64,000 bases of DNA from Alkalibacterium putridalgicola (GTDB lineage Bacteria > Bacillota > Bacilli > Lactobacillales > Carnobacteriaceae_A), in NCBI RefSeq assembly GCF_900109825.1, contig NZ_FOBL01000004.1:1-64000 (forward strand), read 5' to 3'. The first letter of the stretch is position 1. Each line of letters begins with the position of its first letter. The notes beneath the pieces are model-generated. The model saw only the letters and a program-made list of their open reading frames with translations, was not told where the DNA came from and did no database searches. This document shows, piece after piece, positions 10,931 through 34,050 of the stretch. The position numbers and the translations under genes were made by a program.

Positions 10931-10944
10931 ACATAAACAGGACA

Positions 10945-10965: not shown

Positions 10966-10994
10966 CCCGGTTTACTGCAAAAGGGGAAGATCGA

Positions 10995-12077
10995 ATGAAA
11001 ACAACATTTAGGTGGTACGGTAAAGGCAACGATACCGTTTCACTGTCAGATATCAGACAGATTCCTTCCATGCATAGCGTGGTCTGGGCCCTTCATGATC
11101 TGGGACCGGGCGAAGTCTGGCCGGTCGAACGCATCCAGGAAGTGAAAGACCAGGCAGCTGAGTATGATTTAGGTATCGATGTCGTCGAATCGGTCAATGT
11201 ACACGAGGCCATCAAACTTGGCACGGCTGACCGTGACGAATACATCGAGAATTACAAGCAGACGATACGCAACTTGGGTGAAGTCGGCGGCGTCAAGGTC
11301 ATCTGCTACAACTTCATGCCGGTATTCGACTGGGTACGCACTGATATGGCTAAAGAACATGAAGATGGTTCGACCGCACTCTTTTATGAAAACGCTAAAA
11401 TAGAAGGCGTCGACCCGCATGAGCTGTTCGAGCAAGTCAAGCGTTCTTCTAGAGGAATGACTTTGCCAGGCTGGGAGCCCGAGCGACTCGAAAAAATAGA
11501 AGAACTACTGAATGCCTACAATGGTGTTTCAGAAGATGATCTTTTCGAAAATCTGGCTTACTTCCTGAAAGAAATCGTTCCTGTAGCAGAAGAAAACGGG
11601 ATAAAAATGGCCATCCACCCAGATGATCCGCCGTTCCCCGTGTTCAACCTGCCAAGGATCGTTCACAGTAAAGAAAACCTGCAGCGCATCGTAGACGCTG
11701 TGGACAGCCCGTCAAACGGCCTGACCTTATGCAGCGGCGCTTTAGGCTCCATCAAAGGCAACGATATACCGGACATGATCCGAACATTCAAAGACCGTAT
11801 CCCGTTCGCTCATATCAGAAACGTCAAGGTTTATGAGAACGGTGACTTCATCGAGACGTCTCACCGAGAGCAGGACGGTTCAGTCCCGATACTTGAAATA
11901 ATGAAAGCGTATCATGAAATCGGTTTCGAAGGCTATATGAGACCAGACCATGGCAGACACTTATGGGGCGAAGAAAGTCGACCCGGCTATGGCCTCTATG
12001 ACCGTGCGCTTGGAATCATGTATATGATGGGTGCCTGGGACATGCTTGAAAAGCTGGAAAAAGAATCGAGTCAATAA
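10995..12077 (+). CDS. uxuA: D-mannonate dehydratase
   Basis: A 360-residue TIM-barrel enzyme that converts D-mannonate to 2-keto-3-deoxy-D-gluconate. Family landmarks include TFRWYGKGNDTVSLSDIRQI, GVVGVKV-like GGVKVICYNFMPVFDWVRTD, MAIHPDDPPFPVFNLPRIV and MRPDHGRHLWGEE, holding the metal-binding His/Cys/Asp residues. An in-frame ATG at 10842 lies inside aguA and would add 51 unrelated residues; ATG 10995 follows AAAAGGGGAAG and is the real start. Together with uxuB it supplies two consecutive steps of glucuronate breakdown; KDG kinase and aldolase are not in the window. Confidence 0.95.
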   Translation: MKTTFRWYGKGNDTVSLSDIRQIPSMHSVVWALHDLGPGEVWPVERIQEVKDQAAEYDLGIDVVESVNVHEAIKLGTADRDEYIENYKQTIRNLGEVGGVKVICYNFMPVFDWVRTDMAKEHEDGSTALFYENAKIEGVDPHELFEQVKRSSRGMTLPGWEPERLEKIEELLNAYNGVSEDDLFENLAYFLKEIVPVAEENGIKMAIHPDDPPFPVFNLPRIVHSKENLQRIVDAVDSPSNGLTLCSGALGSIKGNDIPDMIRTFKDRIPFAHIRNVKVYENGDFIETSHREQDGSVPILEIMKAYHEIGFEGYMRPDHGRHLWGEESRPGYGLYDRALGIMYMMGAWDMLEKLEKESSQ

Positions 12078-18923: not shown

Positions 18924-20420
18924 ATGAGTTATGTATTAGGTTTAGACTTGGGAACAAGCGGTTTGAAAGGAATCTTAGTCAATAAAGAAGGTAAGATCGT
19001 CGATGAGGCGTCATCAGAATATTCGCTGCTGACACCAAAGCGCGGGTTCAGTGAACAGGACCCACTTGAGTGGTATAGAGCGGCAAAAGAAGTAATGAAG
19101 GAGATCTTTAAATCGACTTCAGACGCGAAAGAGAAACTGGAAGGTATCAGTTTTTCCGGTCAGATGCATTCACTGGTCTTACTAGACGAAAAAGATGACG
19201 TACTGCGCAATGCCATTTTGTGGAACGATGTGCGTACGACGAAACAGTGTGACTTTATCACAGATAAAGTAGACAATCTGATCTCGATCACTAAAAATAA
19301 AGCACTTGAAGGTTTTACTCTACCAAAAATCTTATGGGTAAAAGACAATGAACCGGAAATCTTTGAAAAAGTCAGCACCTTCTTATTGCCGAAAGATTAT
19401 CTCGGCTTCCGTTTGACTGGAAGCAAGCAGATGGAATATTCTGACGCTGCAGGAACATTACTTTTAGATGTTGAATCACGTGACTGGAGTGAAGAAGTGG
19501 CGAAAGCTGTTGATGTACCGACAGCCATCTTCCCTGAACTCGTTCAGTCACAGGCTAAGATCGGTGATCTGGATCCTGCATTAGTTGAAGAACTAGGCCT
19601 GAAAAATACAGTGCCTGTCTTTTCAGGTGGAGCTGACAACCCATGTGCCGCAGTCGGAGCCGGTATCGTCCGTCCTGACCAGGGAATGGCAAGTATCGGG
19701 ACATCAGGTGTGTTCCTGTCCTATGAAGAAACAGGAGACAAAAACTACAATGGACACCTGCATTACTTCAACCATGTCGTACCGAATGCCTTCTATACGA
19801 TGGGCGTGACGCTTGCGGCAGGAAGCAGTCTGAACTGGTTCAAGAAAACTTTTGCACCGAATGAAAGCTTTGTAGAACTATTAAAAGGCGTAAAAGACAT
19901 CAAGCCGGGAGCGGATGGACTATTGTTTGCACCATATATATCAGGTGAACGTACACCGTATACAGATGGGAATATCCGTGGAACATTCTTGGGCATGGAT
20001 ATCGCACACACACGCGATCATTTTGCCCGTGCTGTTCTGGAAGGAATCACTTTCTCACTGAGAGATTCATTTGAACTGATGAAAAAACATTCAAATAAAG
20101 AATTCAAGCAGATCGTTTCTGTCGGTGGCGGAGCGAAGAATCCGGACTGGCTGCAGATGCAGGCTGATATATTTAATACACCGGTCGTTACACTGGAAAC
20201 GGAACAGGGTCCGGCAATGGGGTCAGCTATGATCGCTGCTGTAGGTGCCGGCTGGTTCGACTCTTTTGAAGCATGTTCCGAAGTCTTCGTTAACTATAAG
20301 TCAGAAGTCAAGCCGAATCCGGAAGCTGTATCTAAATACAACAAAGTATACGCCAACTACAAAGAAGTGTATCCGACTATCAAAGACCTTTCTCATAAAT
20401 TAGTGACAGATAACGACTAA
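18924..20420 (+). CDS. xylB: Xylulokinase
   Basis: A 498-residue FGGY-family kinase that phosphorylates D-xylulose to xylulose 5-phosphate. The phosphate loop GLDLGTSGLKGILV is at the N-terminus, the substrate-binding GISFSGQMHSLVLLD, ILWNDVRT and FTLPKILW blocks follow, and the C-terminal signature GGGAKNPDWLQMQADIFN is intact. Length is typical. It acts after xylose isomerase, whose gene is separated from it by 15 kb (35188), an unusual split of the usual xylAB pair. The ribosome site is weak (GGATGTGG). Confidence 0.95.
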   Translation: MSYVLGLDLGTSGLKGILVNKEGKIVDEASSEYSLLTPKRGFSEQDPLEWYRAAKEVMKEIFKSTSDAKEKLEGISFSGQMHSLVLLDEKDDVLRNAILWNDVRTTKQCDFITDKVDNLISITKNKALEGFTLPKILWVKDNEPEIFEKVSTFLLPKDYLGFRLTGSKQMEYSDAAGTLLLDVESRDWSEEVAKAVDVPTAIFPELVQSQAKIGDLDPALVEELGLKNTVPVFSGGADNPCAAVGAGIVRPDQGMASIGTSGVFLSYEETGDKNYNGHLHYFNHVVPNAFYTMGVTLAAGSSLNWFKKTFAPNESFVELLKGVKDIKPGADGLLFAPYISGERTPYTDGNIRGTFLGMDIAHTRDHFARAVLEGITFSLRDSFELMKKHSNKEFKQIVSVGGGAKNPDWLQMQADIFNTPVVTLETEQGPAMGSAMIAAVGAGWFDSFEACSEVFVNYKSEVKPNPEAVSKYNKVYANYKEVYPTIKDLSHKLVTDND

Positions 20421-20433
20421 TAGAAAGATACCG

Positions 20434-20461
20434 AAAAGCTATGATGGTTATCATAGCTTTT
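20434..20461 (+). terminator. Terminator of xylB
   Basis: AAAAGCTATGAT-ggtt-ATCATAGCTTTT, a perfect 12-bp stem followed by CTTTATCG, 14 bases after the stop codon. Confidence 0.85.
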
Positions 20462-20498
20462 CTTTATCGTAAGGGAAGTGAGTGGATCACTGTTATTT

Positions 20499-20914
20499 GT
20501 GCCTTTCATAAACTTCCTGAGTGAACGAAAGGCAGATAAGTAGCGGATATGTGCCCTTCAGGCGATCAGGTAAGACGTGAAGGGCGAAAAAGTGACTGAT
20601 ATATGCCCTTCAGGCAATTGGAGGATGCACGAAGGTCACAAAAGTGGCGTATATGTGCCCTTCAGGAAATCAGAGGATGCACGAAGGTCACAAAAGAGGC
20701 GGATATGTGCCCTCCAGCAGATCAAGGAGCGTACAAAGGTCACAAAAACCGCATTTATGTGACTCTCACAGTAAATATCGAAGCATGAAGGTCACAAAAG
20801 TGATGGATATGTGCCCTTCAGGAAATCAGAGGATGCACGAAAGGCAGATAAGTAACGGAAATTTACCCTTAGCTTGAATTGTCGAGTTCTGAGGGCACAA
20901 AAAGGTTCATTAGA
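20499..20914. repeat. Array C: 52-bp period intergenic tandem repeat, 8 units
   Basis: The anchor GTGCCC (or ATGCCC, GTGACT, TTACCC) falls at 20499, 20551, 20603, 20655, 20707, 20759, 20811 and 20863, exactly 52 bp each time. Within most units GTGCCCTTC pairs with GAAGGTCAC (for example 20655-20663 with 20683-20691, 8 of 9 matches, span 37 bp); in the second unit GCCCTTCA pairs perfectly with TGAAGGGC. The period is not a multiple of three and short open frames there follow the repeat, so it is not taken as coding. It fills the gap between xylB and the oxidoreductase operon. Confidence 0.93.
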
Positions 20915-20941: not shown

Positions 20942-20970
20942 GAAAGCAATCGTCAAGCGATTGCTTTCTT
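20942..20970 (+). terminator. Hairpin ahead of the oxidoreductase operon
   Basis: GAAAGCAATCG-tcaag-CGATTGCTTTC, a perfect 11-bp stem followed by TTATT. It lies 54 bases before the first oxidoreductase start, so it could act as an attenuator or terminate readthrough. TATAAT at 20936-20941 just upstream lacks a good -35. Confidence 0.6.
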
Positions 20971-21023
20971 ATTGACAAAGAGACGCTACGGCTGAAAACA
21001 ACTGAACCGAAAGGATGGATCAA

Positions 21024-22163
21024 ATGTTACGTGTGGCAATAGTAGGAACGGGAGCGATCGCCCCGATGCATGTGGAGGCTTATCTTGAATTCTCAGAAGA
21101 GGTCAAGATCGTTGCCTTATGCGATATCTACCCGGAAAAAGCAGAAAAGATGGCGGCTAAATATAACTTGGATTCTGCTATCTATGACGATCATCAGGAC
21201 ATGCTGAAAAATGAAGAGATCGATCTGGTTTCCGTCTGTACCCCTCCATATGTTCATGCTGAAATAGCCATTAACAGTATGAAAGCAGGATCGAATACAG
21301 TTGTTGAGAAACCAATGGCTGCGTCCCTTAAAGAGTGTGATGATATGATTGAAACGTCCGAAGAAACGGGACAGACGCTTTCGGTTATTTCTCAAAACCG
21401 ATTTACCAATGATTACATGAAACTGAAAGCCCTTCTGGATGAAAAAGTGATCGGTAAAATCCTTCATACTCAAGTGGATTCCTTCTGGTGGAGAGGCAAT
21501 AACTACTATGATTTATGGTGGCGCGGAACTTGGGAAAAAGAAGGCGGCGGCTGTACATTGAATCATGCTGTCCATCATCTGGACATATTTAAATGGCTGA
21601 ATGGTCAGCCGAAAGAAATTCGTTCTGTGATGAGTAATGTTGCGCATGACAATGCCGAAGTGGAAGACATTTCCATTGCTTTAGGAAAGTATGAAGATGG
21701 CTCATTAGCCACATTGACAAGTTCGGTCATTCATCACGGTCAGGAACAGCAGATGATTTTTCAGGGGGAGACCGGAAGACTGTCAGCGCCGTTTAAAGTC
21801 TATGCTTCAAAAACAACTGAGAACGGTTTCCCGGAAGAAAATAATGAACTGATGAAAGATATAGATAATAAATGGCAGGCACTCGATGACTTGGCACATG
21901 AAGGACATACCGGACAATTGAACAACGTGATCCAGCATTTACTTGGAAACGAAGACCTTGTTGTTGATGGGGATCAAGGGAAGGAAACGCTGGAACTGAT
22001 CATGGCGATTTATTCAGCAGCAGAATCAGGAGAAACAGTGACCTTGCCGCTTGAGCCTTCTCATCCTTACTATACAAAAGAAGGTATATTGAAACAGGCC
22101 ACGAGATTCCACGAAAAATCGACATCTATTGAGAACTTTAGTCAGACAGACATCACAACCTGA
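21024..22163 (+). CDS. Gfo/Idh/MocA-family NAD(P)-dependent oxidoreductase (1 of 3)
   Basis: A 379-residue protein with the Rossmann motif RVAIVGTGAIAPMHVEAY, the family lysine motif VVEKPMAASLKECDDMI and the putative catalytic block NHAVHHLDIFKWLNG. The family oxidises or reduces sugars, sugar acids and inositols. The ATG at 21015 sits on top of its ribosome site AAAGGA, so the ATG at 21024, giving MLRVAIVG, is preferred. First gene of a probable ten-gene operon for xylan-derived oligosaccharides. The substrate is unknown; a xylose, glucuronate or 4-O-methylglucuronate derivative is a reasonable guess from context. Confidence 0.88.
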   Translation: MLRVAIVGTGAIAPMHVEAYLEFSEEVKIVALCDIYPEKAEKMAAKYNLDSAIYDDHQDMLKNEEIDLVSVCTPPYVHAEIAINSMKAGSNTVVEKPMAASLKECDDMIETSEETGQTLSVISQNRFTNDYMKLKALLDEKVIGKILHTQVDSFWWRGNNYYDLWWRGTWEKEGGGCTLNHAVHHLDIFKWLNGQPKEIRSVMSNVAHDNAEVEDISIALGKYEDGSLATLTSSVIHHGQEQQMIFQGETGRLSAPFKVYASKTTENGFPEENNELMKDIDNKWQALDDLAHEGHTGQLNNVIQHLLGNEDLVVDGDQGKETLELIMAIYSAAESGETVTLPLEPSHPYYTKEGILKQATRFHEKSTSIENFSQTDITT

Positions 22164-22182
22164 TAAATAAGGAGTTCAAACT

Positions 22183-23232
22183 ATGACTAATGCTGAAAAA
22201 AGTTTACGTGTGGGTGTAGTCGGGCTTGGAGAAGTGTCTCCAGTCCATCTGCAGGCCATAGAAGATAATGACCATGCCGACCTCGTAGCGGTGTGTGACA
22301 GGGACGACAGTTTGAAGCCGGCTGGCAGGGAAACGGCGTTTTATACAGACTATAAACAGATGATCAACGAGTGCCGGCTGGATGTCGTCCATATCTGTCT
22401 GCCGCATCATCTTCACTATCCTGTAACGAAACACTGTGCTGAAGCGGGTATTCATGTGTTCCTGGAAAAACCTTTGTCAATATCTTACGAGGAAGCATTA
22501 AAGCAGAAAGACTTGGAAGACACGACAGACAGCAAGATTTGTGTATGTTTTCAGAACCGCTACAACCCGACGTTTACTGAACTAGTAAACTGGCTGAGTA
22601 AAAAGGAAACGAGTCCGGTAACGGGAATCAAAGGTCTGGTGACCTGGTTTAGAAAAGAAGAGTATTATACATTAAGACCCTGGCGCAAAACCAAAGCAGA
22701 AGTTGGATATGGCAATATCATGAGTCAGTCGATCCACGCGCTGGATCTTATTGCCGTACTTGGAGGAGAAGTCGATTCTGTCAAAGCAACACTTTCAAAA
22801 TTGCTTGATTATGAAAGTGAAGTGGAAGATACAGCGAGTGCCGTCTTCAATTTTTCCTCTGGAGCTAAAGGGTATCTGCACGCAACAAACGCAAATATTT
22901 CAAATTCCAGTGTAGAACTCGAAGTACAAACTGAACATGAGAGGTTCTGGATCAAAGACGGAACGTTATACCGTACAGACCAGGCAGGCGATACACATAT
23001 TTTAGCTGAAGATGACCGAGTAGACGGAGCCAAATCATATTTCGGAGCCAGCCACAAACGCCTGATCGACGTTTTCTACACAGCCATATTGGACGATACG
23101 GATGAATACGTGACGGTCAAAGAAGCGTTGCCTTCCATTCAGTTGATCGAAATGATGGCCGCTTCCTCAAGAACAGTGGTAGAACCGGATATGATCACAG
23201 CAGACGAATTCTTAACTGATATGAAAGGATGA
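22183..23232 (+). CDS. Gfo/Idh/MocA-family oxidoreductase (2 of 3)
   Basis: A 349-residue protein with the nucleotide motif RVGVVGLGEVSPVHLQA, the FLEKPLSISYEEAL lysine motif and the block SQSIHALDLIAVLGGE with the expected His. It follows the first oxidoreductase by 19 bases behind AAGGAG. Sequence is distant enough from its neighbours to suggest a different substrate or step, not a recent duplication. Cytoplasmic; reaction unknown. Confidence 0.87.
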   Translation: MTNAEKSLRVGVVGLGEVSPVHLQAIEDNDHADLVAVCDRDDSLKPAGRETAFYTDYKQMINECRLDVVHICLPHHLHYPVTKHCAEAGIHVFLEKPLSISYEEALKQKDLEDTTDSKICVCFQNRYNPTFTELVNWLSKKETSPVTGIKGLVTWFRKEEYYTLRPWRKTKAEVGYGNIMSQSIHALDLIAVLGGEVDSVKATLSKLLDYESEVEDTASAVFNFSSGAKGYLHATNANISNSSVELEVQTEHERFWIKDGTLYRTDQAGDTHILAEDDRVDGAKSYFGASHKRLIDVFYTAILDDTDEYVTVKEALPSIQLIEMMAASSRTVVEPDMITADEFLTDMKG

Positions 23233-23237
23233 GTTAG

Positions 23238-24320
23238 ATGAGTAAAGTGAGCGGAATGAATCACGCACCAAAAGGAAAGCCCGATTCTGTCGTAGGGAAA
23301 GGTGAGTTCACAGTCGCGGCTATCGGCCTTGACCATGGACATATTTATGGCATGGCCAACGGTTGTGTTGAAGCAGGGGCAGTTATAAAGTGGGTCTTCG
23401 ATAAGGATCCGGAGAAAATGGCTGCCTTTAAAGAGAAGCACCCTGAAGCTCAGATCGCTGAATCAAAACAAGCCATTTATGACGATGAAGATGTCGATAT
23501 GGTTCTATCAGCCGCAGTAGCCAGTGAGCGAAGCACGATCGGGAACGAATCCATGCGTGCCGGGAAGCATTACTTTGCTGACAAAACGGCGTTCACTACA
23601 ATAGAACAGCTTGACGAAAGCAAACGTGTTGTAAAAGAAACAGGCAAACGCTTTTTTGTATACTTTGGAGAACGCTTGCATGTTGAAAGTGCTGTGTATG
23701 CCGGCCAGCTGATTGAAGAAGGAGTCATTGGGGATGTCATTCAAGTCACAGGCTTTGGTCCACACCGACTCAATAAAGAGAACCGACCTGACTGGTTCTT
23801 TGAAAAAGACAAGTACGGTGGTATCCTATGTGACATCGGCAGTCATCAGATCGAGCAGTTCCTGCATTATACAAGCAACACTGAAGCAGAAGTCGTTCAC
23901 AGTAAAGTGGCCAACTACAGCAACCCGGACAAACCCGGGCTGGAAGATTACGGGGATGCGACACTTGTAGGCGGGAATGGTGCAACCTTCTACTTTAAAG
24001 TAGACTGGTTCACTCCAGATGGTTTGTCGACCTGGGGCGATGGCCGGACCTTTATTACAGGGACCAAAGGAACGATCGAGCTCCGTAAATATGTCGATGT
24101 AGCCAAAGAAGAATCCGGCAACCATCTCTATTTAGTAACGGAAGAAGGAGAAGAGCACTACGACCTTAATGGAAAAGTGGGCTATCCATTCTTCGGTGAG
24201 ATGATCCTCGACTGCCTGAATGGAACAGAAAAAGCTATGACCCAGGATCATATCTTCAAAGCTCAGGAACTGGCTCTGCTGGCAGAAAGAGACGCCATAC
24301 AATTACAGCCTAAACTATAA
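23238..24320 (+). CDS. Atypical Gfo/Idh/MocA-family oxidoreductase (3 of 3)
   Basis: A 360-residue member starting 5 bases after the previous gene. It is unusual on two counts: the usual GxGxxG is replaced by AIGLDHGHIYGMANG, and the EKP motif is replaced by FADKTAFTT, keeping Lys but losing Glu and Pro. The catalytic-domain block CDIGSHQIEQFLHY is conserved. An extra about 20 residues (MSKVSGMNHAPKGKPDSVVG) precede the Rossmann fold. The family assignment is firm; the altered motifs suggest a distinct subgroup with its own cofactor handling or substrate. Confidence 0.85.
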   Translation: MSKVSGMNHAPKGKPDSVVGKGEFTVAAIGLDHGHIYGMANGCVEAGAVIKWVFDKDPEKMAAFKEKHPEAQIAESKQAIYDDEDVDMVLSAAVASERSTIGNESMRAGKHYFADKTAFTTIEQLDESKRVVKETGKRFFVYFGERLHVESAVYAGQLIEEGVIGDVIQVTGFGPHRLNKENRPDWFFEKDKYGGILCDIGSHQIEQFLHYTSNTEAEVVHSKVANYSNPDKPGLEDYGDATLVGGNGATFYFKVDWFTPDGLSTWGDGRTFITGTKGTIELRKYVDVAKEESGNHLYLVTEEGEEHYDLNGKVGYPFFGEMILDCLNGTEKAMTQDHIFKAQELALLAERDAIQLQPKL

Positions 24321-24344
24321 ACCTATAATACGAGGAGGATGTTG

Positions 24345-25376
24345 ATGAAAAAGTTTATCTGCAATCCGATCCTGCCTTTTGACGAATATATTCCCGATCC
24401 GGAAGTGCATGTTTTTGGTGATCGGGTCTATATATATGGAAGTCATGATGAATTCAACGGTAGGATGTACTGCGAAAATGACTATGTCACCTGGTCAGCA
24501 CCAGTCACCGATCTATCCAACTGGCGTTACGAAGGCGTCATTTATAAAAAATCCGACCACCAGTCCCCAGTAAAGATGGAAAAAAACAACATGTATGCCC
24601 CTGATGTGGCAAAAGGACCGGACGGTAACTACTATCTTTATTACTCGATCGCAGACTCAAGTGTGATATCCGTAGCTAAAAGTGACTCGCCGGCTGGACC
24701 CTTTTCGTATTATGGTGACGTGCAGTCTCATTCTGGTCATATTTATGGTGAGAGCAAGGAGGATTACTTTGAATTCGATCCAGCGGTACTGGTAGATGGG
24801 GATCGGGTGTATCTTTACTTAGGTTCTGGTCAGAAAGCGAACGAGAAAAATGGACATCCGGTCGTCGGTCTGTTTGTAAGAGAACTGGGGTCCGATATGC
24901 TGACAGCGAAAACAGAGCCAGAAATCTTGATGCCGGCGGATGATGACCGCAGTCAGCCGAACTTCTTTGAAGGGGCTTCGATACGTAAATTCGATGACTG
25001 GTATTACCTCTTGTATATGGCAACAGATTTGAGTGGTCTGCATTATATGATGAGCCGGTATCCGGACAGAGACTTCGAACACAAAGGATTACTGCATACG
25101 ACCAGTTCAAGTCAGCTCGTTGACGAACGTTCAATGTACGAAAGATATATCGTCGAGAATAACCACGGAAGTTTAGAAAAAATAAATGGAAAGTATTATA
25201 TCTTCAATCATCGTCACACGAATCAGTCACATTTTTCCAGACAAGTCGTTGGAGACAAGCTGGAAATGTCAGAAGACGGCACATTCCACCAGGCCGCATA
25301 CACAAGTGTGGGAGTGCGGGGGGAGCCGTTTAACGAGTTGACACACTATCCGGCAGCCATGACTGCAGTCTGGTGA
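24345..25376 (+). CDS. GH43 catalytic domain (arabinofuranosidase/xylosidase type), separated from its C-terminal domain
   Basis: A 343-residue beta-propeller glycosidase. Base Asp in YIPDPEVHVFGDRVYIYGSH, middle Asp in FEFDPAVLVDGD, acid Glu in FFEGASIRKFDDWYYLL. It closely parallels the first about 350 residues of the GH43 at 42318, which continues in one frame into a beta-sandwich; here the frame stops at 25374-25376 and the sandwich is encoded by the next frame, whose GTG overlaps this stop. The ATG at 24345 has GAGGAGG at 6 bases; ATG 24339 abuts it, so 24345 is the start. Likely removes arabinose or xylose from short oligosaccharides in the cytoplasm. Confidence 0.88.
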   Translation: MKKFICNPILPFDEYIPDPEVHVFGDRVYIYGSHDEFNGRMYCENDYVTWSAPVTDLSNWRYEGVIYKKSDHQSPVKMEKNNMYAPDVAKGPDGNYYLYYSIADSSVISVAKSDSPAGPFSYYGDVQSHSGHIYGESKEDYFEFDPAVLVDGDRVYLYLGSGQKANEKNGHPVVGLFVRELGSDMLTAKTEPEILMPADDDRSQPNFFEGASIRKFDDWYYLLYMATDLSGLHYMMSRYPDRDFEHKGLLHTTSSSQLVDERSMYERYIVENNHGSLEKINGKYYIFNHRHTNQSHFSRQVVGDKLEMSEDGTFHQAAYTSVGVRGEPFNELTHYPAAMTAVW

Positions 25377-25729
25377 ATGCGAAAGATTTAGCAGACCGTC
25401 CTTATATCACGCAGGAAGAAAAGGTAGGTGGCAGTCAGCCGCAGAGTTTAGTCAGGAACCTGTCAGATGGGGCTGAGCTGATCTATCGTTCCTTTTATTT
25501 GCCGGATGCAACGACTATAACAGTCGCTGTCAGAGGTCAGGCAAGAGGCGTGATCACCCTTATTTTTAGAAGCGACAGTGAGAAGTATGAACAGTTGAAA
25601 ATCGACTTGCCGACTTACGACTGGGAGGAACGCGAGATCAGTTTTTCACCTTATCAGAAGACATTTGATTTGACCCTTCGATATGAAGGGGAAGGAACAC
25701 TTGATATAAAAGAACTTAAATTTAATTAG
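25373..25729 (+). CDS. Split-off C-terminal beta-sandwich domain of the preceding GH43
   Basis: A 118-residue frame starting with GTG inside the stop region of the GH43 gene (GTGA overlap), which would allow translational coupling. Its PYITQEEK...LVRNLSDGAELIYRSFYL...TITVAVRGQARGVITLIF parallels PKITQEGK...YIQNMTDSATAGFKYFDF...KITLKVRGYCNGAFEIKT of the intact GH43 at 42318, so this is the missing CBM6-like module. Either a one-base frameshift (natural or an assembly error) or a real two-chain enzyme. There is no separate ribosome site. Confidence 0.8.
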   Translation: MNAKDLADRPYITQEEKVGGSQPQSLVRNLSDGAELIYRSFYLPDATTITVAVRGQARGVITLIFRSDSEKYEQLKIDLPTYDWEEREISFSPYQKTFDLTLRYEGEGTLDIKELKFN

Positions 25730-25750: not shown

Positions 25751-28700
25751 ATGTTTTTCGAATCGGATTATATAGCATTTAAAAATAATGAGAATCATGT
25801 TGCGGTAGTTGATGAAGAAACACTGCTGCCGATCGTTGTCTTAGACAACGAACACAAAAGTGTGAAGCGTGTGGCAGGCGATCTGCAGTCGGACCTGGAG
25901 AAAGTAACTGGGAAATCACCCGATATATTAACAGAACTACCTGAAGAGCCAGCCGTGATCGTCGGGACGGTTTCAAACGCTTCACTCATAGAACGCCTTG
26001 GGATAGACACTGCTGACTTACAGGGCAAGTGGGAAAGTTTCGCTATACAAACAGTCTTACTTCCTGGTCATGTCAGTGAAAGTATCGTCATTCTAGGCAG
26101 CGATAAACGCGGGGCGATATTCGGTGTTTATGACTTTACAGAAAAGATGGGCGTGTCTCCCTGGTACTGGTGGATGGATGTCCCCGTCAAACAGCATGAT
26201 GCCATCTACGTGAAAAAAGGCAAAGTTTCGCAGGGCGACCCAAGTGTCCAGTATCGTGGCTTTTTCCTGAACGACGAAGGCCCATCCCTGATGACCTGGG
26301 TGAGAACGCATTTCCCCGACTTTACTTATGAATTTTACGAAAAGATATTTGAACTGACACTAAGACTTAAAGGCAATTATCACTGGCCGGCCATGTGGGA
26401 CAGTACATTTTATGAGGACGATGAACTGAATATCGTCACGGCTGATCTATATGGTGTCATCATCGGAACCAGTCATCACGAACCGATGAACCGGCCGCAT
26501 GGGGACTGGAAAACACATAAAAAAGGTCCCTGGGACTATGCTGAAAATGAAATGTATCTTAAAAAGTTCTGGACTGATGGCATCGAACGCTCCAAACCTT
26601 ACGAAACGATCATTAACCTAGGTATGCGCGGTGATGGAGACGAACCGATGGGTGGAGACCTGACTTTCAAGGAAAAAATCAAGCTGATGGAAAAAATCAT
26701 CAAAGATCAGCGCGAGATCATGCAAGATACAATGGATGTGTCCATTGAAGAGGTGCCGCAGATGTGGGCCCTTTATAAAGAAGTGAAAGAGTATTATGAC
26801 TCAGGAATGGACGTGCCGGAAGACATTACGCTGCTCTGGGGTGATGACAACTTCGGAAATATCAGACGTCTGCCGACTAAAGCAGAACGCCAGCGCAAAG
26901 GCGGAGCAGGTATCTATTATCACTTTGATTATGTCGGTGGGCCGCGCTCTTATAAGTGGGTCAATACCGTCCCTATCCAGAAAACATACGAACAGATGCA
27001 CAAGGCTTATGAATATGAAGCGAAAAAACTCTGGATCGTCAACGTCGGGGATTTGAAACCGATGGAATATCAGACAGAATTCTTCATGAAGCTGGCATGG
27101 CAGGAAGAAGCGTTCAATCCGGGAAATCTTGAGGTCTATGCACAGGAATGGGCAGACTACACATTCGGTAAAGAACACGGTGAATCTGTGGCAAAAATCA
27201 TCCGAGATTACGTGAAGTTCAACGGACGAATGAAACCGGAAGTAATCAATCTTGTTGATCAGTACAGCTGGGACAATGAGTATGAAGCTGAGCGTATACT
27301 GAAAGAGTTTGAAGAAACAGTTGAGCTGGCAGAAACAGTATTCAATACGATACCGGCCGAGTATAAAGATGCGTTTTACCAAGTGGCCTATTATCCGGCC
27401 AAAGCGTCCTACACGGTCCTTAAACTTCAGCTGCTGGCCAACTTGAGCAAAAAGTATAAAAAGCAGGGACGCCGGGCAACGAATGTCATAGCTCAGGAAG
27501 CTGAGAGATTATTCGAAGCAGACAAGCAACTAACTTATGAATACAATAAACGTGTTGCTCACGGTAAATGGGATCATATGATGGACCAGCTGCATATCGG
27601 ATACACTTACTGGCAGCAGCCGGACGAACTGATCATGCCGGGAACTGCAACACTTAATGATGCTGAACGGACGGACGGTGACTGGGACATCGAGCTCGTA
27701 GACTCAAACAAAACGGACAGTTACAGCAGGAAACCGATAACGATTGACGTGTACAACAAAGGAAATGAATTGATTTCGCTGGAAGTTGCATCGGATAACG
27801 ACTGGCTGGTGATAGAACAGGAACAGCTTGATATCAGTATGCAGGAGCGGCTGGTGATCGATATCGACTGGACTAAAATCGGACACGGCGAAAATATCCA
27901 AGGCTCTGTTAAACTGAAGGATGCTGCTTCCAATGAAAGAGTGATAGATGTATTTGTGGATAATCCGAAAGAAAAATTGTCGGGCGGTTTTGTACCCGTC
28001 GATGGAAAAATAGCCATCGAAGCAGAAGACTTTTCTGAAAAAAGAGAAACCACTGGTCATCATTGGGAAGTCATCCCGGACTATGGACGCACCAAGTCAT
28101 CTCTCGCTATCTCTCCTGTAGAACGTGAACAGAATCTCTTGAGTGATGAGGCACCGAGACTGTCTTATGATATCGTCCTTCCAGAGAAAGGGAAGGCAGA
28201 TATCAAAGTCATCACAGCCCCGTCACTGCCATTCGATCCTGACAAAGGCGTGCGCCTGGGGATTTCCGTCGATGAAAAAGATATCACCGTCGTCAGCCCT
28301 GGCGACTTGTCTCAAAACGGTGAACATGACTCCAAGGATTGGGAACGCAGTGTGATTTATAACTGTCATGAGTATAAGCTCGAAGGCATTGAACTAGCTG
28401 AAGGCAAGCACACAGTCCATCTGACACTTATCGATCCTCAAGTCGTGATTCAAAAACTGGTCGTAAACTTGGGTGGAGTGAAACCGACTTATTTAGGTCC
28501 AATGCCGACACCGCATGCGGATAGACTAAACCAGTTTGAACCGTATATCCCAATAAAGAAAATCGACTTTGCCTCTCTTCCGGGGCTCGTGACACCAAAT
28601 GACGCTAAAGTTTATGCAGAAGAGAGCGGGATTTACTCTGTCGACTCGGAGTCGCTCGATGCCCTTTATCTCGATGAAAGCAAGAAACTGCTGAACGAGG

Positions 28701-29065
28701 ACAAGACAGTCTTTATCGAAAAGGGCTGGCACACTTTGAGAGTGGAAAATGATGTCCTGATCGACTTGGTCAAACCGCTGCCTTTAACTGTCAAGCCGGT
28801 CGTCACTCACATTAAAAACGAACTAGATGTACAGATGCTTCTCCATTATATGGGGGATGCTTCCCTGCTCGTCAAAACAGAAGTCAGCGTGAAAGCGAAA
28901 CTGCCGGACATCAATAAAGCCGCGGCAAAAAAATGGCTGAAAACAGATGAACAGCAGCTTAAAGACTTTATTTTCGACATTCCAAAGTCGGATGCCTTAT
29001 CCGTCAAGATCGACATTACAGTGGAGGGGCATACCTACACACTTTCTATACCTCTATATGAATAG
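25751..29065 (+). CDS. GH115 alpha-(4-O-methyl)-glucuronidase
   Basis: A 1104-residue enzyme. GH115 blocks include GVSPWYWWMDVPV, YRGFFLNDEGPSLMTWVR, LKGNYHWPAMWD, TSHHEPMNRP, INLGMRGDGDEPM and LLWGDDNFGNIRRLP, giving the usual N-terminal domain, TIM barrel and helical domain, then C-terminal beta modules (from about 650). GH115 enzymes can remove 4-O-methylglucuronate from internal as well as terminal xyloses, complementing the GH67 AguA that acts only at the non-reducing end. No signal peptide, so it works on imported oligosaccharides. The spacing from the possible ribosome site AAAGGA is rather long (about 14 bases). Confidence 0.95.
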   Translation: MFFESDYIAFKNNENHVAVVDEETLLPIVVLDNEHKSVKRVAGDLQSDLEKVTGKSPDILTELPEEPAVIVGTVSNASLIERLGIDTADLQGKWESFAIQTVLLPGHVSESIVILGSDKRGAIFGVYDFTEKMGVSPWYWWMDVPVKQHDAIYVKKGKVSQGDPSVQYRGFFLNDEGPSLMTWVRTHFPDFTYEFYEKIFELTLRLKGNYHWPAMWDSTFYEDDELNIVTADLYGVIIGTSHHEPMNRPHGDWKTHKKGPWDYAENEMYLKKFWTDGIERSKPYETIINLGMRGDGDEPMGGDLTFKEKIKLMEKIIKDQREIMQDTMDVSIEEVPQMWALYKEVKEYYDSGMDVPEDITLLWGDDNFGNIRRLPTKAERQRKGGAGIYYHFDYVGGPRSYKWVNTVPIQKTYEQMHKAYEYEAKKLWIVNVGDLKPMEYQTEFFMKLAWQEEAFNPGNLEVYAQEWADYTFGKEHGESVAKIIRDYVKFNGRMKPEVINLVDQYSWDNEYEAERILKEFEETVELAETVFNTIPAEYKDAFYQVAYYPAKASYTVLKLQLLANLSKKYKKQGRRATNVIAQEAERLFEADKQLTYEYNKRVAHGKWDHMMDQLHIGYTYWQQPDELIMPGTATLNDAERTDGDWDIELVDSNKTDSYSRKPITIDVYNKGNELISLEVASDNDWLVIEQEQLDISMQERLVIDIDWTKIGHGENIQGSVKLKDAASNERVIDVFVDNPKEKLSGGFVPVDGKIAIEAEDFSEKRETTGHHWEVIPDYGRTKSSLAISPVEREQNLLSDEAPRLSYDIVLPEKGKADIKVITAPSLPFDPDKGVRLGISVDEKDITVVSPGDLSQNGEHDSKDWERSVIYNCHEYKLEGIELAEGKHTVHLTLIDPQVVIQKLVVNLGGVKPTYLGPMPTPHADRLNQFEPYIPIKKIDFASLPGLVTPNDAKVYAEESGIYSVDSESLDALYLDESKKLLNEDKTVFIEKGWHTLRVENDVLIDLVKPLPLTVKPVVTHIKNELDVQMLLHYMGDASLLVKTEVSVKAKLPDINKAAAKKWLKTDEQQLKDFIFDIPKSDALSVKIDITVEGHTYTLSIPLYE

Positions 29066-29076
29066 GAGCGAATGAA

Positions 29077-30201
29077 ATGACAAAAGAAACACAGACATAC
29101 CGTAATGTATTCAAAGAAGTCGGTTACTCGGATGAAGCGATCCAGGATAAACTGGGATCGACTTGGAAAGCCATTTTTGAGAAGCCGGAGACCAAGTTTT
29201 ATTTCAGGAACGGTGACGACATGGGCTATATGGTCGATACCGGAAATACAGATGTCCGTACCGAAGGCCAGTCCTACGGGATGATGATGGCTGTGCAGAT
29301 GGACCGTCAGGATATCTTTGACCGCATCTGGAAATGGACCGATACTTTCATGCGCAATCATGAAGGTCCTTTCAAAGGTTATTTCGGCTGGCACGCATCA
29401 CTTGATGGCGAGAAAATGAGTGAGGGACCGGCACCGGATGGCGAAGAATTCTTCGCCATGGCCTTGTTCCTGGCTTCCAAACGCTGGGGCGATAAGGAAG
29501 AAAAACCCTTCAACTACAGTGAACAGGCTAGAGACCTGCTGAAAATCTGTGTGCACAAAGGAGAGGATGGAGAAGCCGGGGATCCGATGTGGGACCCTGA
29601 GAACTATCTGATCAAGTTTGTACCGGACTGTGACTTCACCGATCCATCCTATCATCTGCCGCATTTCTATGAAGTGTTTGCAGAAGAAGCTGCCGAAGAG
29701 GACCGAGAATTCTGGAAAAAAGCGGTTGAAGCCAGTCGAGACTATATACCACAATCCTGCCATCCTGAAACTGGAATGAATCCTGAATATGCCCATTATG
29801 ACGGGACACCTAATCCAGTGAATGACCATGGTGATTTCTACAGTGATGCTTATCGTACGGCAGCCAATATGGGCCTGGATTCTGAATGGTTCGGCAAACG
29901 CGAGGCTTACAAAACGTGTGTGACGAATTTACTGGAGTTTTTTGAAGACAAAGATCCTGAAGAGTACCAGAAATATGAAATCGACGGGACCGATACAGGC
30001 GAACCGTCCCTGCATCCGATCGGCCTGCTGGCGACGAATGCTATGGCGATTTTAGCCATCGATGACCAGAAACTCACTGAAAAAACAGTGAAACAGTTCT
30101 TTGAAACACCACCACGTTTAGGCAACCGCCGCTACTATGATAACTTCCTGTACATGTTCAGTGTACTGGCTTTGAGCGGTAACTACCGAATGAACTGGTA
30201 A
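29077..30201 (+). CDS. GH8 reducing-end xylose-releasing exo-oligoxylanase (Rex)
   Basis: A 374-residue (alpha/alpha)6-barrel enzyme. DVRTEGQSYGMMMAVQMD contains the catalytic acid Glu63; FGWHASLDGEKMSEGPAPDGEEFFAMAL and FYSDAYRTAANMGLD are the conserved GH8 blocks, in the form seen in Bacillus halodurans Rex and not in cellulase-type GH8. Such enzymes cut one xylose from the reducing end of xylo-oligosaccharides of three or more units. No signal peptide, consistent with a cytoplasmic role next to GH10 and GH43. Confidence 0.92.
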   Translation: MTKETQTYRNVFKEVGYSDEAIQDKLGSTWKAIFEKPETKFYFRNGDDMGYMVDTGNTDVRTEGQSYGMMMAVQMDRQDIFDRIWKWTDTFMRNHEGPFKGYFGWHASLDGEKMSEGPAPDGEEFFAMALFLASKRWGDKEEKPFNYSEQARDLLKICVHKGEDGEAGDPMWDPENYLIKFVPDCDFTDPSYHLPHFYEVFAEEAAEEDREFWKKAVEASRDYIPQSCHPETGMNPEYAHYDGTPNPVNDHGDFYSDAYRTAANMGLDSEWFGKREAYKTCVTNLLEFFEDKDPEEYQKYEIDGTDTGEPSLHPIGLLATNAMAILAIDDQKLTEKTVKQFFETPPRLGNRRYYDNFLYMFSVLALSGNYRMNW

Positions 30202-30228: not shown

Positions 30229-31221
30229 ATGTCAGAAATCACTTTAAAAGAAGCGTACAAAAACTATTTTAAAATTGGTGTGGCAGTTAACCCTAACACA
30301 CTAGAAAAAGATGGCGACTTAATCAAAAAACACTTCAACAGCCTAACACCGGAGAATCATATGAAACCGGAAGAACTTCAGCCAAAAGAAGGCGAGTTTA
30401 CCTTTGAAAAAGCAGATAAGATCGTTGCCTTTGCCAAAGAAAACGATATGGAACTGCGTGGACATACGCTGGTCTGGCACAACCAGACACCAGAATGGAT
30501 GTTCAAAGACGGTGACAAAGAAGCCAGCCGTGAAGTAGCATTGAAGCATATGAAAGAGCACATCGAAGCCGTACTTGAGCACTACAGCAAGGAACCATTC
30601 TATGCCTGGGATGTGATCAATGAAGTCATAGCGGACGAAGGTGACGAGCTGTTGCGTGAATCCCCATGGCGTTCTATAATTGGAGATGACTATGTTGAAA
30701 AAGCATTTGAATTTGCCCACGCAGCTGATCCGAACATGCCGCTTTACTATAACGATTACAATGAATCGCATCCAGAAAAACGCGAAAAAATTTATAAGCT
30801 GGTCAAAGGATTGAAAGACAAAGGGATCCCGATACACGGCGTTGGCCTGCAGGCGCATTGGGGACTGGAAGACCCGAGTCTGGATAATATCCGAGAAGCG
30901 ATCGAGAAGTATGCATCCCTCGGTCTGAAGCTCCATATCACAGAAATGGATGTATCCGTCTTCAACTTCGAGGACAGGCGTACAGACTTAAGTAAACCGA
31001 CAGAAGAAATGATGAAGAAGCAGGCCGAGCGCTATGATGCTTTCTTCAAGCTTTTCAGAGAATACAGTGAGCATATCGAGTCCGTGACATTGTGGGCAGC
31101 CAGTGACCGCTACAACTGGCTGAATGACTTCCCGGTCAGAGGACGCAAAAATTGGCCGATGCTTTTTGATACAGAGAATCAACCGAAAGAAAGTTTCCTC
31201 CGGGTCACTTCTTTCAATTAA
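30229..31221 (+). CDS. Intracellular endo-1,4-beta-xylanase, GH10
   Basis: A 330-residue single-domain GH10. Acid/base Glu132 in WDVINEVIAD and nucleophile Glu239 in LHITEMDVS are intact, with the substrate-binding blocks NSLTPENHMKPE and GHTLVWHNQTPEWMF. There is no signal peptide and no binding module; this matches intracellular GH10 enzymes of aldouronate clusters (Geobacillus XynA2 type) that shorten imported oligosaccharides. GAGGAGAG precedes the ATG. It follows the GH8 gene by 27 bases. Confidence 0.95.
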   Translation: MSEITLKEAYKNYFKIGVAVNPNTLEKDGDLIKKHFNSLTPENHMKPEELQPKEGEFTFEKADKIVAFAKENDMELRGHTLVWHNQTPEWMFKDGDKEASREVALKHMKEHIEAVLEHYSKEPFYAWDVINEVIADEGDELLRESPWRSIIGDDYVEKAFEFAHAADPNMPLYYNDYNESHPEKREKIYKLVKGLKDKGIPIHGVGLQAHWGLEDPSLDNIREAIEKYASLGLKLHITEMDVSVFNFEDRRTDLSKPTEEMMKKQAERYDAFFKLFREYSEHIESVTLWAASDRYNWLNDFPVRGRKNWPMLFDTENQPKESFLRVTSFN

Positions 31222-31246: not shown

Positions 31247-32137
31247 ATGTCGATTGCAATGATCAAAGGAATGGCGAAACAAATGATGAAGGGGAAACGA
31301 CTGCTCTTGACAGTCGGGTATATCCTGGCGCTGACTGCCTGGGCGATAGCTGCCCAGATCCTGACAGGCCTGTTCCGGCTGCCTTCGCTTTTTGATTTCA
31401 CTGAAGCAGCATTAGAGGGAAGGCTTGGACTGAACATGACCACCCTGCTGTTTCCTGTTCTGCTTATTCTTCTTTTTATACTGGCAGATATGCTTCATGT
31501 CAGCTACCGCTGGTTTGGGCTGGATGTCATGGATGAAAAGACTGAAGAACCAAAAATGGTCTTTCAAGGCTTTCATAGAGATAAGATCAAGCGACTGATG
31601 TCTCTCGTTCTGCTGCGTTTTGTGATCGTTGCGGGCTGGAGTCTGCTCTTGATTCTGCCCGGCATTTGGAAAGCTTACTTATATAGCCAGGCTGCCAACA
31701 TCATGAAAACGGATGGAAAGGTTACAGCTATGGAAGCTTTGAAACAGTCTGAAGAGGTGATGGAAGGGAACGAGTGGAAATATGCAGCACTTCAGCTGAC
31801 TTTTGCACCATGGTATCTTATCCCGGCAGGGCTCTTCGCTTATTTTATAGGCAGCAACCTCTTTGAGATCGAGACAGGTTTTGAAACAGGGGCAGAGAGC
31901 GCTGAGCTTATTTATGGCTTGCTCGTTGCCGTCTTTTTCATGACGCTCTTGATCGTCTTCCTCTTCTCGATCTATGTCGAGCCTTTTAAAATGATGTCAA
32001 AACAGGTATTTTATACTGAATTGGTTAATCACACCAGAGAAGAGACGTATGATGACTATGAAGAAGTCCTTCTGAAGAGGCAGGGACTGGATTCCAGTAA
32101 AAACACTAAACGTAACCAGAAGCGAACAAAACGCTAA
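31247..32137 (+). CDS. DUF975 family integral membrane protein
   Basis: A 296-residue protein with about six hydrophobic segments and the DUF975 blocks WSLLLILPGIWKAYLYSQAAN and EALKQSEEVMEGNEWKYAALQL, ending in a Lys-rich tail (KNTKRNQKRTKR). The family is common in lactobacilli and clostridia and has no known function. It is embedded in the oligoxylan operon between GH10 and the esterase, so a role in transport or membrane adaptation during import is possible but unproven. Confidence 0.78.
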   Translation: MSIAMIKGMAKQMMKGKRLLLTVGYILALTAWAIAAQILTGLFRLPSLFDFTEAALEGRLGLNMTTLLFPVLLILLFILADMLHVSYRWFGLDVMDEKTEEPKMVFQGFHRDKIKRLMSLVLLRFVIVAGWSLLLILPGIWKAYLYSQAANIMKTDGKVTAMEALKQSEEVMEGNEWKYAALQLTFAPWYLIPAGLFAYFIGSNLFEIETGFETGAESAELIYGLLVAVFFMTLLIVFLFSIYVEPFKMMSKQVFYTELVNHTREETYDDYEEVLLKRQGLDSSKNTKRNQKRTKR

Positions 32138-32160
32138 TCATATACAGGAAAGAGAGAATA

Positions 32161-34050
32161 ATGATGACAAGTGAAAAAACGATGGCTTTACCCAGCTATA
32201 TCAGTGACGGGATGATCGTTCAGCGCCACGAGCCGATCCTTTTAAAAGGGAAAGACGCTCAGGGGACCGAAGTCAGTGTGACTTTTGACGGAGAAACCGC
32301 TCAGGTGACAGCGGACGATTCCGGTTTATGGTCGGTGACTTTATCAGAAAGAGAAGCAGGAGGTCCCTATACCCTAGAGATCAAGGGCTCAGAGTACTTA
32401 GAAATTAAGGATATCTACGTTGGTGAAGTCTGGCTGATCGGCGGACAGTCCAACATGGAGCTCCCTGTCAACCGTACCTATGATGAATTCAAAGAAGAGA
32501 TCGATGCAGCCGATCATCCGCTAATCCGTCAGTTTCATCTTGAGGCGGACCCTGAGTTTGATCAGCCGAAAGAATGGCTGACGCAGGGAGAGTGGAAGAC
32601 GGCTACTCAGGAAAACATCCAGGATTTTTCATCTCTTGGTTTTTTCTATGCAAAAAAACTTCATGAACAACTGGGTGTGTCTGTAGGGATCTATCATACA
32701 GCGGTTGGCGGGACGCCGATCGAAGCCTGGATGAGCGAAGAAACACTGCATGAGCTCGGTGACTATGATGAAGAGATCGCCTACTGGAAAAAACCGGAGA
32801 ATGTAGGAAAAGAGATCGAAAAAGATCTGAAGAACACCGAGGTCTGGTATACGGATCTTGACCAGAAGGACAGAGGTCTGAATGACTCGCCTAAGTGGAT
32901 GGAGGAGAACATCGATACGTCGGACTGGTTGACCATGGACTTGCCTGTCATGTTCAAGGATACCGAGCTCGATGGCTTTTCAGGCGCTGTCTGGTTCAGA
33001 AAAACGTTCGAGATGACGGCTGATCAGCTAGCATCGACTTCCTTCCGCTTGCGCCTAGGTTCGTTGATCAACGGAGACGAGACTTATCTGAACGGCGAAA
33101 AAGTCGGCGGAACCGAGTACCGTTATCCGCCCCGTAAATATACAGTAGATAAAGATGTCTTAAAGGAAGGGAAGAATACGCTGGTCGTCCGTCTGATGAT
33201 CGATGCGGCAAACGGCGGTTTCATCCCGACGTTCCCTTATCAGCTTGAACTGAACGACGACGCGATCGATCTGGAAGGGGAGTGGCTCTATAAGGTGGGC
33301 TATGAAAAAGAGGCGATCGCACCGATGCTGTTCCTGCATTATAAACCCGCTTCCGAATACAAAGGCATGCTTTCCCCGCTGAAAGATGTGGCTTTTAAAG
33401 GCGCGCTCTTTTACCAGGGAGAATCCAATACTGGCCAGCCAGCCGGCTACAAGGAACTGATGAAACGCATGGTTCGTGACTGGAGAGAGCTCTTTGACAG
33501 AGATTTCCCTTTCTATTATGTGCAGCTGGCAAATTATGTGGATCCTGCAGTCGGTATCGATGATGAGAATTGGGCCGAGCTGCGTTATGAGCAGGACCGC
33601 GCCCGTTTCCTTATCGAAAAATCTGAAATGATCCCGGCCTATGACTGCGGGATCTCTTATGAACTGCATCCGCATGACAAAAAAACACTGGCGCACAGAC
33701 TGGCACATATCGCTTTGAGCCGAGACTACGGTGTCGAAGAGATGTACGAAAACTTGGAAATCGAGGGTGCCGGTAAATCAGCGGATTCTATACTCCTGCA
33801 GGTAAAAGGTCTTAAAGGTGATCTTAAACTAACAGAAACCTTACCTGAAATTGAAGTCAGTGTGAATGGCGACTGGGTGGAGGTTCATATTAGTGAGATA
33901 AAGGGAAATGAGGTTCAAATCAGTATGACTGACACGACTGAAGTGGATGAAGTGACGGAAATCAGATATGCCTGGAGGAACGATCCACAAGGGTTCGTCT
34001 TTGATTCAGAAACGAATCTGCCGCTGCTGCCGTTCACTTATCCACTATAA
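32161..34050 (+). CDS. SGNH-hydrolase acetylesterase (sialate O-acetylesterase-like)
   Basis: A 629-residue protein. The catalytic Ser97 lies in GGQSNMELP; the block FKGALFYQGESNTGQP and YYVQLANY are typical of the DUF303 esterases, with a jelly-roll insertion (about 235-380, SGAVWFRKTFEM). The catalytic His appears as His503 in ELHPHDK, where the usual Asp two residues before is Glu501. In this locus it most likely strips acetyl groups from imported xylo-oligosaccharides. No signal peptide. ATG codons at 32161 and 32164 are both possible. Last gene of the operon; an array and hairpins follow. Confidence 0.88.
   Translation: MMTSEKTMALPSYISDGMIVQRHEPILLKGKDAQGTEVSVTFDGETAQVTADDSGLWSVTLSEREAGGPYTLEIKGSEYLEIKDIYVGEVWLIGGQSNMELPVNRTYDEFKEEIDAADHPLIRQFHLEADPEFDQPKEWLTQGEWKTATQENIQDFSSLGFFYAKKLHEQLGVSVGIYHTAVGGTPIEAWMSEETLHELGDYDEEIAYWKKPENVGKEIEKDLKNTEVWYTDLDQKDRGLNDSPKWMEENIDTSDWLTMDLPVMFKDTELDGFSGAVWFRKTFEMTADQLASTSFRLRLGSLINGDETYLNGEKVGGTEYRYPPRKYTVDKDVLKEGKNTLVVRLMIDAANGGFIPTFPYQLELNDDAIDLEGEWLYKVGYEKEAIAPMLFLHYKPASEYKGMLSPLKDVAFKGALFYQGESNTGQPAGYKELMKRMVRDWRELFDRDFPFYYVQLANYVDPAVGIDDENWAELRYEQDRARFLIEKSEMIPAYDCGISYELHPHDKKTLAHRLAHIALSRDYGVEEMYENLEIEGAGKSADSILLQVKGLKGDLKLTETLPEIEVSVNGDWVEVHISEIKGNEVQISMTDTTEVDEVTEIRYAWRNDPQGFVFDSETNLPLLPFTYPL

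Follow-up and report, generated by a model that had tools for sequence, protein, structure and literature searches.

A conserved pair of Gfo/Idh/MocA oxidoreductases accompanies alpha-glucuronidase genes in xylan clusters and may act on the glucuronate side chain

Three consecutive genes at the head of a xylan operon in Alkalibacterium putridalgicola, here termed W1, W2 and W3, encode different oxidoreductases of the Gfo/Idh/MocA superfamily. They lie in a stretch of 64,000 nucleotides (assembly GCF_900109825.1, contig NZ_FOBL01000004.1, positions 1 to 64,000 of the forward strand) that we refer to as the window. We find that W1 and W3 form a unit, and on balance we lean towards the view that they, with W2 added in this genus, constitute a module dependent on nicotinamide adenine dinucleotide (NAD) that acts on the glucuronate side-chain sugar freed by the alpha-glucuronidases GH67 and GH115. 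The observations on which this view is built are gene order, family placement, conserved active-site residues and co-occurrence with GH67, UxaC and W3. The trio is laid out as follows.

21015 to 22163, plus strand: W1, Gfo/Idh/MocA oxidoreductase of the WlbA / glucuronide-3-dehydrogenase type, 382 aa, first gene of the operon (Pfam, solved chains)
22183 to 23232, plus strand: W2, Gfo/Idh/MocA oxidoreductase, 349 aa (Pfam, tree)
23238 to 24320, plus strand: W3, Gfo/Idh/MocA oxidoreductase of the 2P2S/3U3X family, 360 aa (Pfam, tree)

All three proteins match PF01408 and a C-terminal domain (PF02894/PF22725) above the curated Pfam cut-offs, the lowest PF01408 score being that of W3 (28.8 against a cut-off of 24). 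BLASTP identity over partial alignments is 27% for W1 and W2 and 24% for W1 and W3, while W2 and W3 give no BLASTP match at 1e-5. The sequence-only reading of this DNA, which had seen three distinct members of the superfamily in a row, was thus right on this point. The open frame of W1 starts at 21015, and 21024 is its second ATG.

W1 is associated with W3 and with glucuronate genes. In a phylum sample of 398 genomes from 267 genera, W1 orthologues are present in 13 genomes, with 51–61% identity outside the own genome and 36% for the next best match. Every one of these 13 has W3, which occurs in 18 of the 398 (Fisher 1e-20); 11 have GH67 (24/398; Fisher 2e-13) and 12 have UxaC (47/398; Fisher 2e-11). 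Counted by genus, W1 is found in 8 of 267, together with W3 in all 8, with GH67 in 6 and with UxaC in 7. The search at 1e-60 returned 18 genomes, five of which (G357, G178, G212, G303 and G066, at 33–36% identity) were not counted as orthologue-bearing; if all 18 are counted, 13 have GH67, 13 W3 and 14 UxaC. The W1 genome that lacks UxaC, G088, carries a GH115 homologue (32% identical to that of the window) 5.9 kb upstream of W1, and UxuA downstream of it. Because of the co-occurrence with GH67 and UxaC, we place the W1/W3 pair with glucuronate side-chain metabolism, beside the ordinary route. Within the genus, W1 was detected in 5 of 12 genomes, the other seven giving no match at 1e-60. The order of the cluster is identical in all five (in G008 it spans two contigs), and since the same gene order recurs in the four other W1-positive genomes, the arrangement of the trio is not due to chance.

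Gene order was compared at 24 W1 loci: besides the window, these were four from relatives in the genus, twelve from the phylum sample, six from genome_contigs and one on a plasmid. W3 lies downstream of W1 on the same strand in 16 of them, with W2 between the two in the genus. Elsewhere W3 is divergent (L017), beyond the contig end (G008), or outside the fetched stretch (L012, L016, L081, L086, L087 and L088); in family f4 (L081, L086–L088) it is located elsewhere in the genome (L111–L114), adjoining a gene of the C43a type that is introduced below. An alpha-glucuronidase gene is present in the fetched stretch at 11 of the 24 loci, these being the five of the genus, L013, L079 (a GH115 homologue) and L082–L085 (GH67). 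The order at L083 is UxuA, ABC transporter, GH67, W1, W3, GH52, GH39 and acetyl xylan esterase; L084 and L085 have open reading frames (ORFs) of similar length at the same positions, and the L082 stretch is cut short.

None of the three proteins reaches the curated cut-off of any NCBIfam model. For W1 the top model is archaeal UDP-GlcNAc 3-dehydrogenase (118.9 against a cut-off of 450), and its scores with iolG, levoglucosan dehydrogenase and Gfo6 xylose dehydrogenase are 114.6 (cut-off 355), 83.7 (650) and 76.6 (350); the same three models give 95, 58.5 and 35.1 for W2, and 45.9, 40 and 18.8 for W3. The sequence-only reading had set its proposal against orthology to inositol- or glucose-type dehydrogenases, and no such orthology emerged, the inositol, xylose and levoglucosan models all scoring below cut-off. 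The glycoside 3-dehydrogenase models BT_2158 and BT_2159 are likewise below cut-off for W1 (46/750 and 38.8/650), W2 (37.2 and 20.4) and W3 (35.9/650, BT_2159 only). Nor did a GH109-like role gain specific support, in that the GH109 chains 2IXA (residues 4–151, 45 bits) and 6T2B (residues 5–174, 43 bits) align with the N-terminal half of W1 only; against the W1 model, 6T2B ranks 50 (Z 21.1), through a fold common to the whole superfamily.

The best solved chains for W1 by sequence are those of WlbA, a UDP-GlcNAcA 3-dehydrogenase (3Q2I, 3Q2K, UDP-GlcNAcA bound; 26% identity), and the P2B11 glucuronide-3-dehydrogenase 8TDI, from the same superfamily. The predicted structure agrees: compared with the 1000 best Foldseek chains, the W1 model places WlbA at ranks 1–2 (Z 24.6, 24.6) and 8TDI third (Z 22.9, a value tied with several other superfamily members below it), with inositol and glucose-fructose enzymes next at Z 21–22. 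WlbA and 8TDI share with W1 both a W-x-R-x3-YY-x3-6-WR segment and an N-x3-H segment. The former is present in W1, W2 and two proteins encoded elsewhere in the genome, C43a and C43b; it is missing from the own-genome Gfo proteins C19, C47a, C47b, C8 and C34 (a test that left out three further PF01408 matches), from W3 and C43c, and from the glucoside enzyme DgpA in the alignments. By best-hit group it is found in 25 of 26 rows for W1, 3/3 for W2, 11/14 for C43a and 5/7 for C43b, and in 0/5 for W3 and 0/28 for C43c. From this distribution we suggest that the segment may bind the uronate carboxylate. In an alignment of W1 with 19 relatives of 50–75% identity (20 rows), K99, the lysine of EKP, and N183 and H187 of the C-terminal helix are invariant; a conserved lysine of an E-K-P-type motif and a histidine of the C-terminal helix have established roles in Gfo/Idh/MocA enzymes.

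W2 and W3 lead to a second operon in this genome, on contig C43:

L001 1276 to 15062 and L127 5769 to 12929: the C43 operon

The run consists of genes for an AraC-type protein, C43a, C43b, a TIM-barrel protein of the AP_endonuc_2 family, C43c, and GntR-type, GPH-type, GH3-type and HAD-type proteins (these last four types were assigned by eye, with NCBIfam matches under the cut-off as a further basis for the transporter and GH3), and continues with UxaC, UxuA, SDR, KdgA and KdgK, which make up a complete glucuronate route. 8TDI has its orthologue in C43a (483 bits, aligned from residue 6 to 389 of 391), whereas W1 and W2 reach 120 and 68 bits and fall outside the 8TDI/C43a clade (100/100); identity between W1 and C43a is about 28%. 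For the TIM-barrel protein the solved matches are 8TCT, 8TCD and 8TCS, which we take to be the lyases of the published 8TDI pathway. The genome has five AP_endonuc_2 (PF01261) matches; of the four assessed, this protein is the sole candidate for a lyase partner, beside UxuA and XylA of the window and the second UxuA, and the fifth match is C64. W2 is 52% identical to C43b and W3 69% identical to C43c, so that the 8TDI orthologue adjoins relatives of both. Elsewhere, too, W3-type genes go with C43a-type genes, in several cases together with the TIM-barrel protein.

Among solved structures, W2 has WlbA as its two best matches and 8TDI in fourth place, and W3 matches 2P2S (residues 24–353, 360 bits) and 3U3X (residues 23–353, 299 bits). 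D115-K116 and D199-x3-H203 of W3 are invariant in a 5-row alignment; its predicted structure (mean predicted local distance difference test, pLDDT, 53.6) was too poor for a structure search. A phylogeny against characterised members, proposed by the sequence-only reading, served W2 and W3 well: W2 groups with C43b next to the 8TDI clade (99/97), and C43c is the sister of W3 (100/99) within the 2P2S/3U3X clade (100/100). It served W1 less well, in that W1 and its orthologues group with three alpha-proteobacterial W1-like rows at a weak fork (76/95) that also includes the long branch C8. Given the tree placement and the paralogy with C43b and C43c, the window trio looks like W1 combined with a W2 and W3 of the glucuronide-operon type. 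2P2S and 3U3X place W3 in a family without explaining its function, since the Protein Data Bank names them only 'putative oxidoreductase' and 'oxidoreductase'. In G008, W2 is split across two overlapping frames (L011 2659–3661).

The genes around the trio are these.

24339 to 25729, plus strand: GH43 protein of 345 aa (Pfam); 118-aa ORF lacking a Pfam match
25751 to 29065, plus strand: GH115 alpha-glucuronidase (Pfam)
29077 to 30201, plus strand: GH8 (Pfam)
30229 to 31221, plus strand: GH10 xylanase, no obvious signal peptide seen by eye (Pfam)
31247 to 34050, plus strand: DUF975 protein and SASA-type esterase, closing the closely spaced run (Pfam)
8810 to 12077, plus strand: GH67 alpha-glucuronidase and UxuA mannonate dehydratase of the same xylan cluster
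18924 to 20420, plus strand: XylB xylulokinase
20433 to 20462, plus strand: terminator-like hairpin of 13 pairs between xylB and the W1 operon, from a scan that overall did not exceed shuffles (terminator-like 9 against 13.4, promoter-like 23 against 22.1)
35188 to 36516: XylA xylose isomerase

No gap exceeds 27 bp between W1 and position 34050, where the esterase gene ends. The trio therefore does head an operon with GH115, GH8, GH10 and an esterase, as the sequence-only reading had described, and there is besides a GH43 gene directly after W3. The GH43 gene and the 118-aa ORF are in different frames and share 4 bp; the four relatives have a single ORF of 460–469 aa here, and the 118-aa ORF is 26–27% identical to the C-terminus of that ORF in the two relatives compared. 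The upstream part of the cluster holds GH67, UxuA, an ABC transporter, GH43 and XylB, and with both XylB and XylA in the window xylose has its ordinary route. Between the end of xylB (20420) and W1 there are 594 bp, fewer in the four genus relatives, and a tandem repeat of period 52 (5.8 copies with 72% matches) occupies 20538–20841. A perfect 9-bp inverted repeat with a 5-bp spacer (20944–20966) occurs once in the window; we rejected it as a conserved operator, because it is missing upstream of W1 in the four relatives. A mannitol-dehydrogenase-family protein (PF01232) of 539 aa is kept in the cluster at 5262–6881. It cannot clearly be called a fructuronate reductase, reaching 130 bits where 603 are required, and none of the NCBIfam models for dehydrogenases of fructuronate, tagaturonate and arabinitol finds it above cut-off; the five W1 genomes are the sole genomes of the genus with a PF01232 match. 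Outside the cluster, a further tandem repeat (2.2 copies, period 104) is found at 57776–57999.

Several W1- and W3-like genes reside on plasmids. Among the plasmid regions opened, a W3-type gene stands beside another Gfo gene in four from Rhizobiales and one from Rhodobacterales; the second Gfo gene is W1-like in several and sugar ABC transporters are present in most. On a Phyllobacterium plasmid (L122 6897–10068), three consecutive Gfo/Idh/MocA genes, W3-type and W1-like ones included, precede a sugar ABC transporter. A Streptomyces plasmid, NZ_CP108712.1, has a W1-like match of 33% identity at 250708–251721 (hit H32), in a stretch annotated with a Gfo/Idh/MocA oxidoreductase and an endo-1,4-beta-xylanase.

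For the module that we favour, the substrate, cofactor, position of oxidation and direction of each enzyme are what we infer. GH67 and GH115 would free glucuronate and 4-O-methylglucuronate from imported aldouronates (no obvious signal peptide was seen by eye in GH115, and GH67 is assumed to be intracellular), and plain glucuronate would pass to UxaC. W1 would oxidise a ring hydroxyl of glucuronate or 4-O-methylglucuronate, most likely at C3 as in its nearest relatives, and the resulting ketone would make the carbons next to it reactive, allowing a lyase-like or isomerising step. After this change at the neighbouring carbon, W3 (or W2) would return the hydride, and the product would enter the UxaC/UxuA route; since the hydride is given back, such a cycle would be redox neutral. 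Reduction of a keto-glucuronate by W3 would fit both kinds of operon in this genome. The added redox step envisaged by the sequence-only reading is in this respect strengthened, being tied to the glucuronate side chain by the uronate-type 3-dehydrogenase relatives and the co-occurrence with GH67 and UxaC.

Wood xylan carries 4-O-methylglucuronate, and reasoning from the pathway we expect the 4-O-methyl ether to stop the ordinary glucuronate route at KDPG aldolase. For this sugar, a 3-ketone with a 4-methoxy group might tautomerise to an enol ether, hydrolysis of which would give methanol and a 4-ketone, and W3 or W2 would reduce the 4-ketone to glucuronate for UxaC. Every chemical step of this scheme is conjecture, and its net result, a redox-neutral removal of the 4-O-methyl group from 4-O-methylglucuronate by W1 and W3, we offer as a speculative and rather unlikely extension, although of the purposes that the pair might serve it is the one that attracts us most.

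Glycoside cleavage via a 3-ketone is established chemistry, and the trio could instead serve oxidation-driven cleavage, another role that the sequence-only reading had raised: W1 or W2 would oxidise a glucuronoside at C3, a TIM-barrel lyase would eliminate the aglycone, water would be added and W3 would reduce the resulting 3-keto-glucuronate, making the trio a spare glucuronosidase for linkages that GH67 and GH115 miss. The genome does hold such a set, C43a with the TIM-barrel protein, in the operon whose C43b and C43c are paralogues of W2 and W3. However, the lyase-type partner belongs to that operon and is absent from that of W1, in which respect the latter differs from the 8TDI pathway. 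G005, G008 and G010 keep W1-W2-W3 but gave no match to it in a six-frame protein search (E 1e-5), although the PF01261 profile search covered the own genome only and a distant lyase could thus exist in these three. Furthermore, PF06439 (3-keto-disaccharide hydrolase, a keto-sugar lyase family) was not found in the own genome, and GH67 and GH115 already cut the glucuronate linkage. W2 or W3 may have lyase activity, or a distant lyase may lie elsewhere; nonetheless, given the three genomes without the TIM-barrel partner and the lack of PF06439 in the own genome, the full known oxidation-elimination mechanism is unlikely, and we regard cleavage by the trio as improbable.

Still less probable, to our minds, is an oxidative pentose or aldonate route in which W1 and W3 oxidise xylose (or a uronate) at C1 to a lactone that feeds dehydratases. 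It draws on L013 (3100–20581), from a metagenome-assembled genome, where W1-W3 lie with a D-xylonate dehydratase of the YjhG/YagF type (1137 bits, cut-off 808), two aldehyde dehydrogenases, one of them nearest to alpha-ketoglutarate-semialdehyde dehydrogenase (625 of 770), FAH, a mandelate-racemase-type dehydratase, GH67 and GH10, a cluster that suggests an oxidative pentose or uronate route in that organism; SMP-30 lactonase and dehydratase-family genes are also near two alpha-proteobacterial W3-type loci. The window, by contrast, carries XylA and XylB, ILVD/EDD and FAH proteins were not found among its Pfam-scanned proteins, and W1 scores far below the cut-off of the Gfo6 xylose dehydrogenase model (76.6 bits against 350). 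We give very little credence to the trio as an alternative entry from glucuronate to mannonate in place of UxaC and UxuB, an idea suggested by three of four g100 stretches, in which UxuA is clustered with GH67-W1-W3 while UxaC is elsewhere in the genome (the fourth stretch is cut short). UxaC is present in 12 of the 13 W1-positive genomes, and in the own genome UxaC, the second UxuA and SDR stand together with KdgA and KdgK in one run; as the ordinary route is present beside the trio, we rejected such a replacement.

A module for the glucuronate side-chain sugar has to be weighed against several observations that do not favour it. The Fisher values overstate significance, since the sampled genomes are related, and at most four (W1) and five (W3) candidates per genome were scored in the phylum searches. 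W1 is missing from 13 of the 24 GH67-positive genomes, so that users of alpha-glucuronidase can manage without it, and conversely GH67 is absent from 2 of the 13 W1 genomes, G131 and G088, the latter having its GH115 homologue. Thirteen of the 24 W1 loci are away from glucuronidase genes, L078 for example being near a gene for an Obg-type GTPase, and the four loci of family f4 have an AraC-type neighbour and no matched xylan genes. On alpha-proteobacterial plasmids the W3-type genes sit with sugar ABC transporters, some with lactonase or dehydratase genes, in stretches where no xylanase is annotated. As to structure, the W1 model has a mean pLDDT of 68.6 and falls under 50 over most of the active-site loop, and many inositol, glucose-fructose and other dehydrogenases follow close behind 8TDI (Z 21–23), so that the fold does not distinguish between substrates.

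Compared with known systems, the trio belongs to a known superfamily and, as far as the sequences tell, would form a module resembling a known pathway, with a different setting and a different lead enzyme. WlbA serves cell-surface sugar synthesis, whereas W1 is set among catabolic xylan genes. The sequence-only reading held that xylan and aldouronate clusters need no sugar oxidoreductase, which is correct in part. The Geobacillus glucuronate/xylan cluster includes alpha-glucuronidase, ABC transporters, uronate isomerase, mannonate dehydratase and also a short-chain dehydrogenase; yet in the rows of its xylan table available to us there is no Gfo/Idh/MocA or 'oxidoreductase' entry, unlike in the window operon, so that enzymes of this kind do appear unusual there (PMC4428132). 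According to that paper, Geobacillus arabinan clusters encode 'oxidoreductase domain' proteins of unknown function, and another describes a thuAB-like pair in Paenibacillus for which a 3-keto-maltose step is inferred (PMC4765114); the presence of redox genes among those for glycosidases thus has precedents. In the open-access literature that was searched, we found no account of bacterial 4-O-methylglucuronate catabolism and nothing on 3-keto glucuronide cleavage, and the parts available to us held no description of a W1/W3-like pair in a xylan operon, which does not imply its absence elsewhere.

What the finding offers is a conserved pair that accompanies alpha-glucuronidase in several lineages, mostly in genomes with UxaC, and hence a short and testable list of candidates; it also suggests a role for the structural family of 2P2S and 3U3X. 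The pair probably reworks the glucuronate side-chain sugar, possibly as the methylated sugar, about whose breakdown little is understood. If the demethylation scheme were true, it would mean that several lineages of the phylum cleave a sugar methyl ether by cycling NAD, with no need of oxygen or corrinoid.

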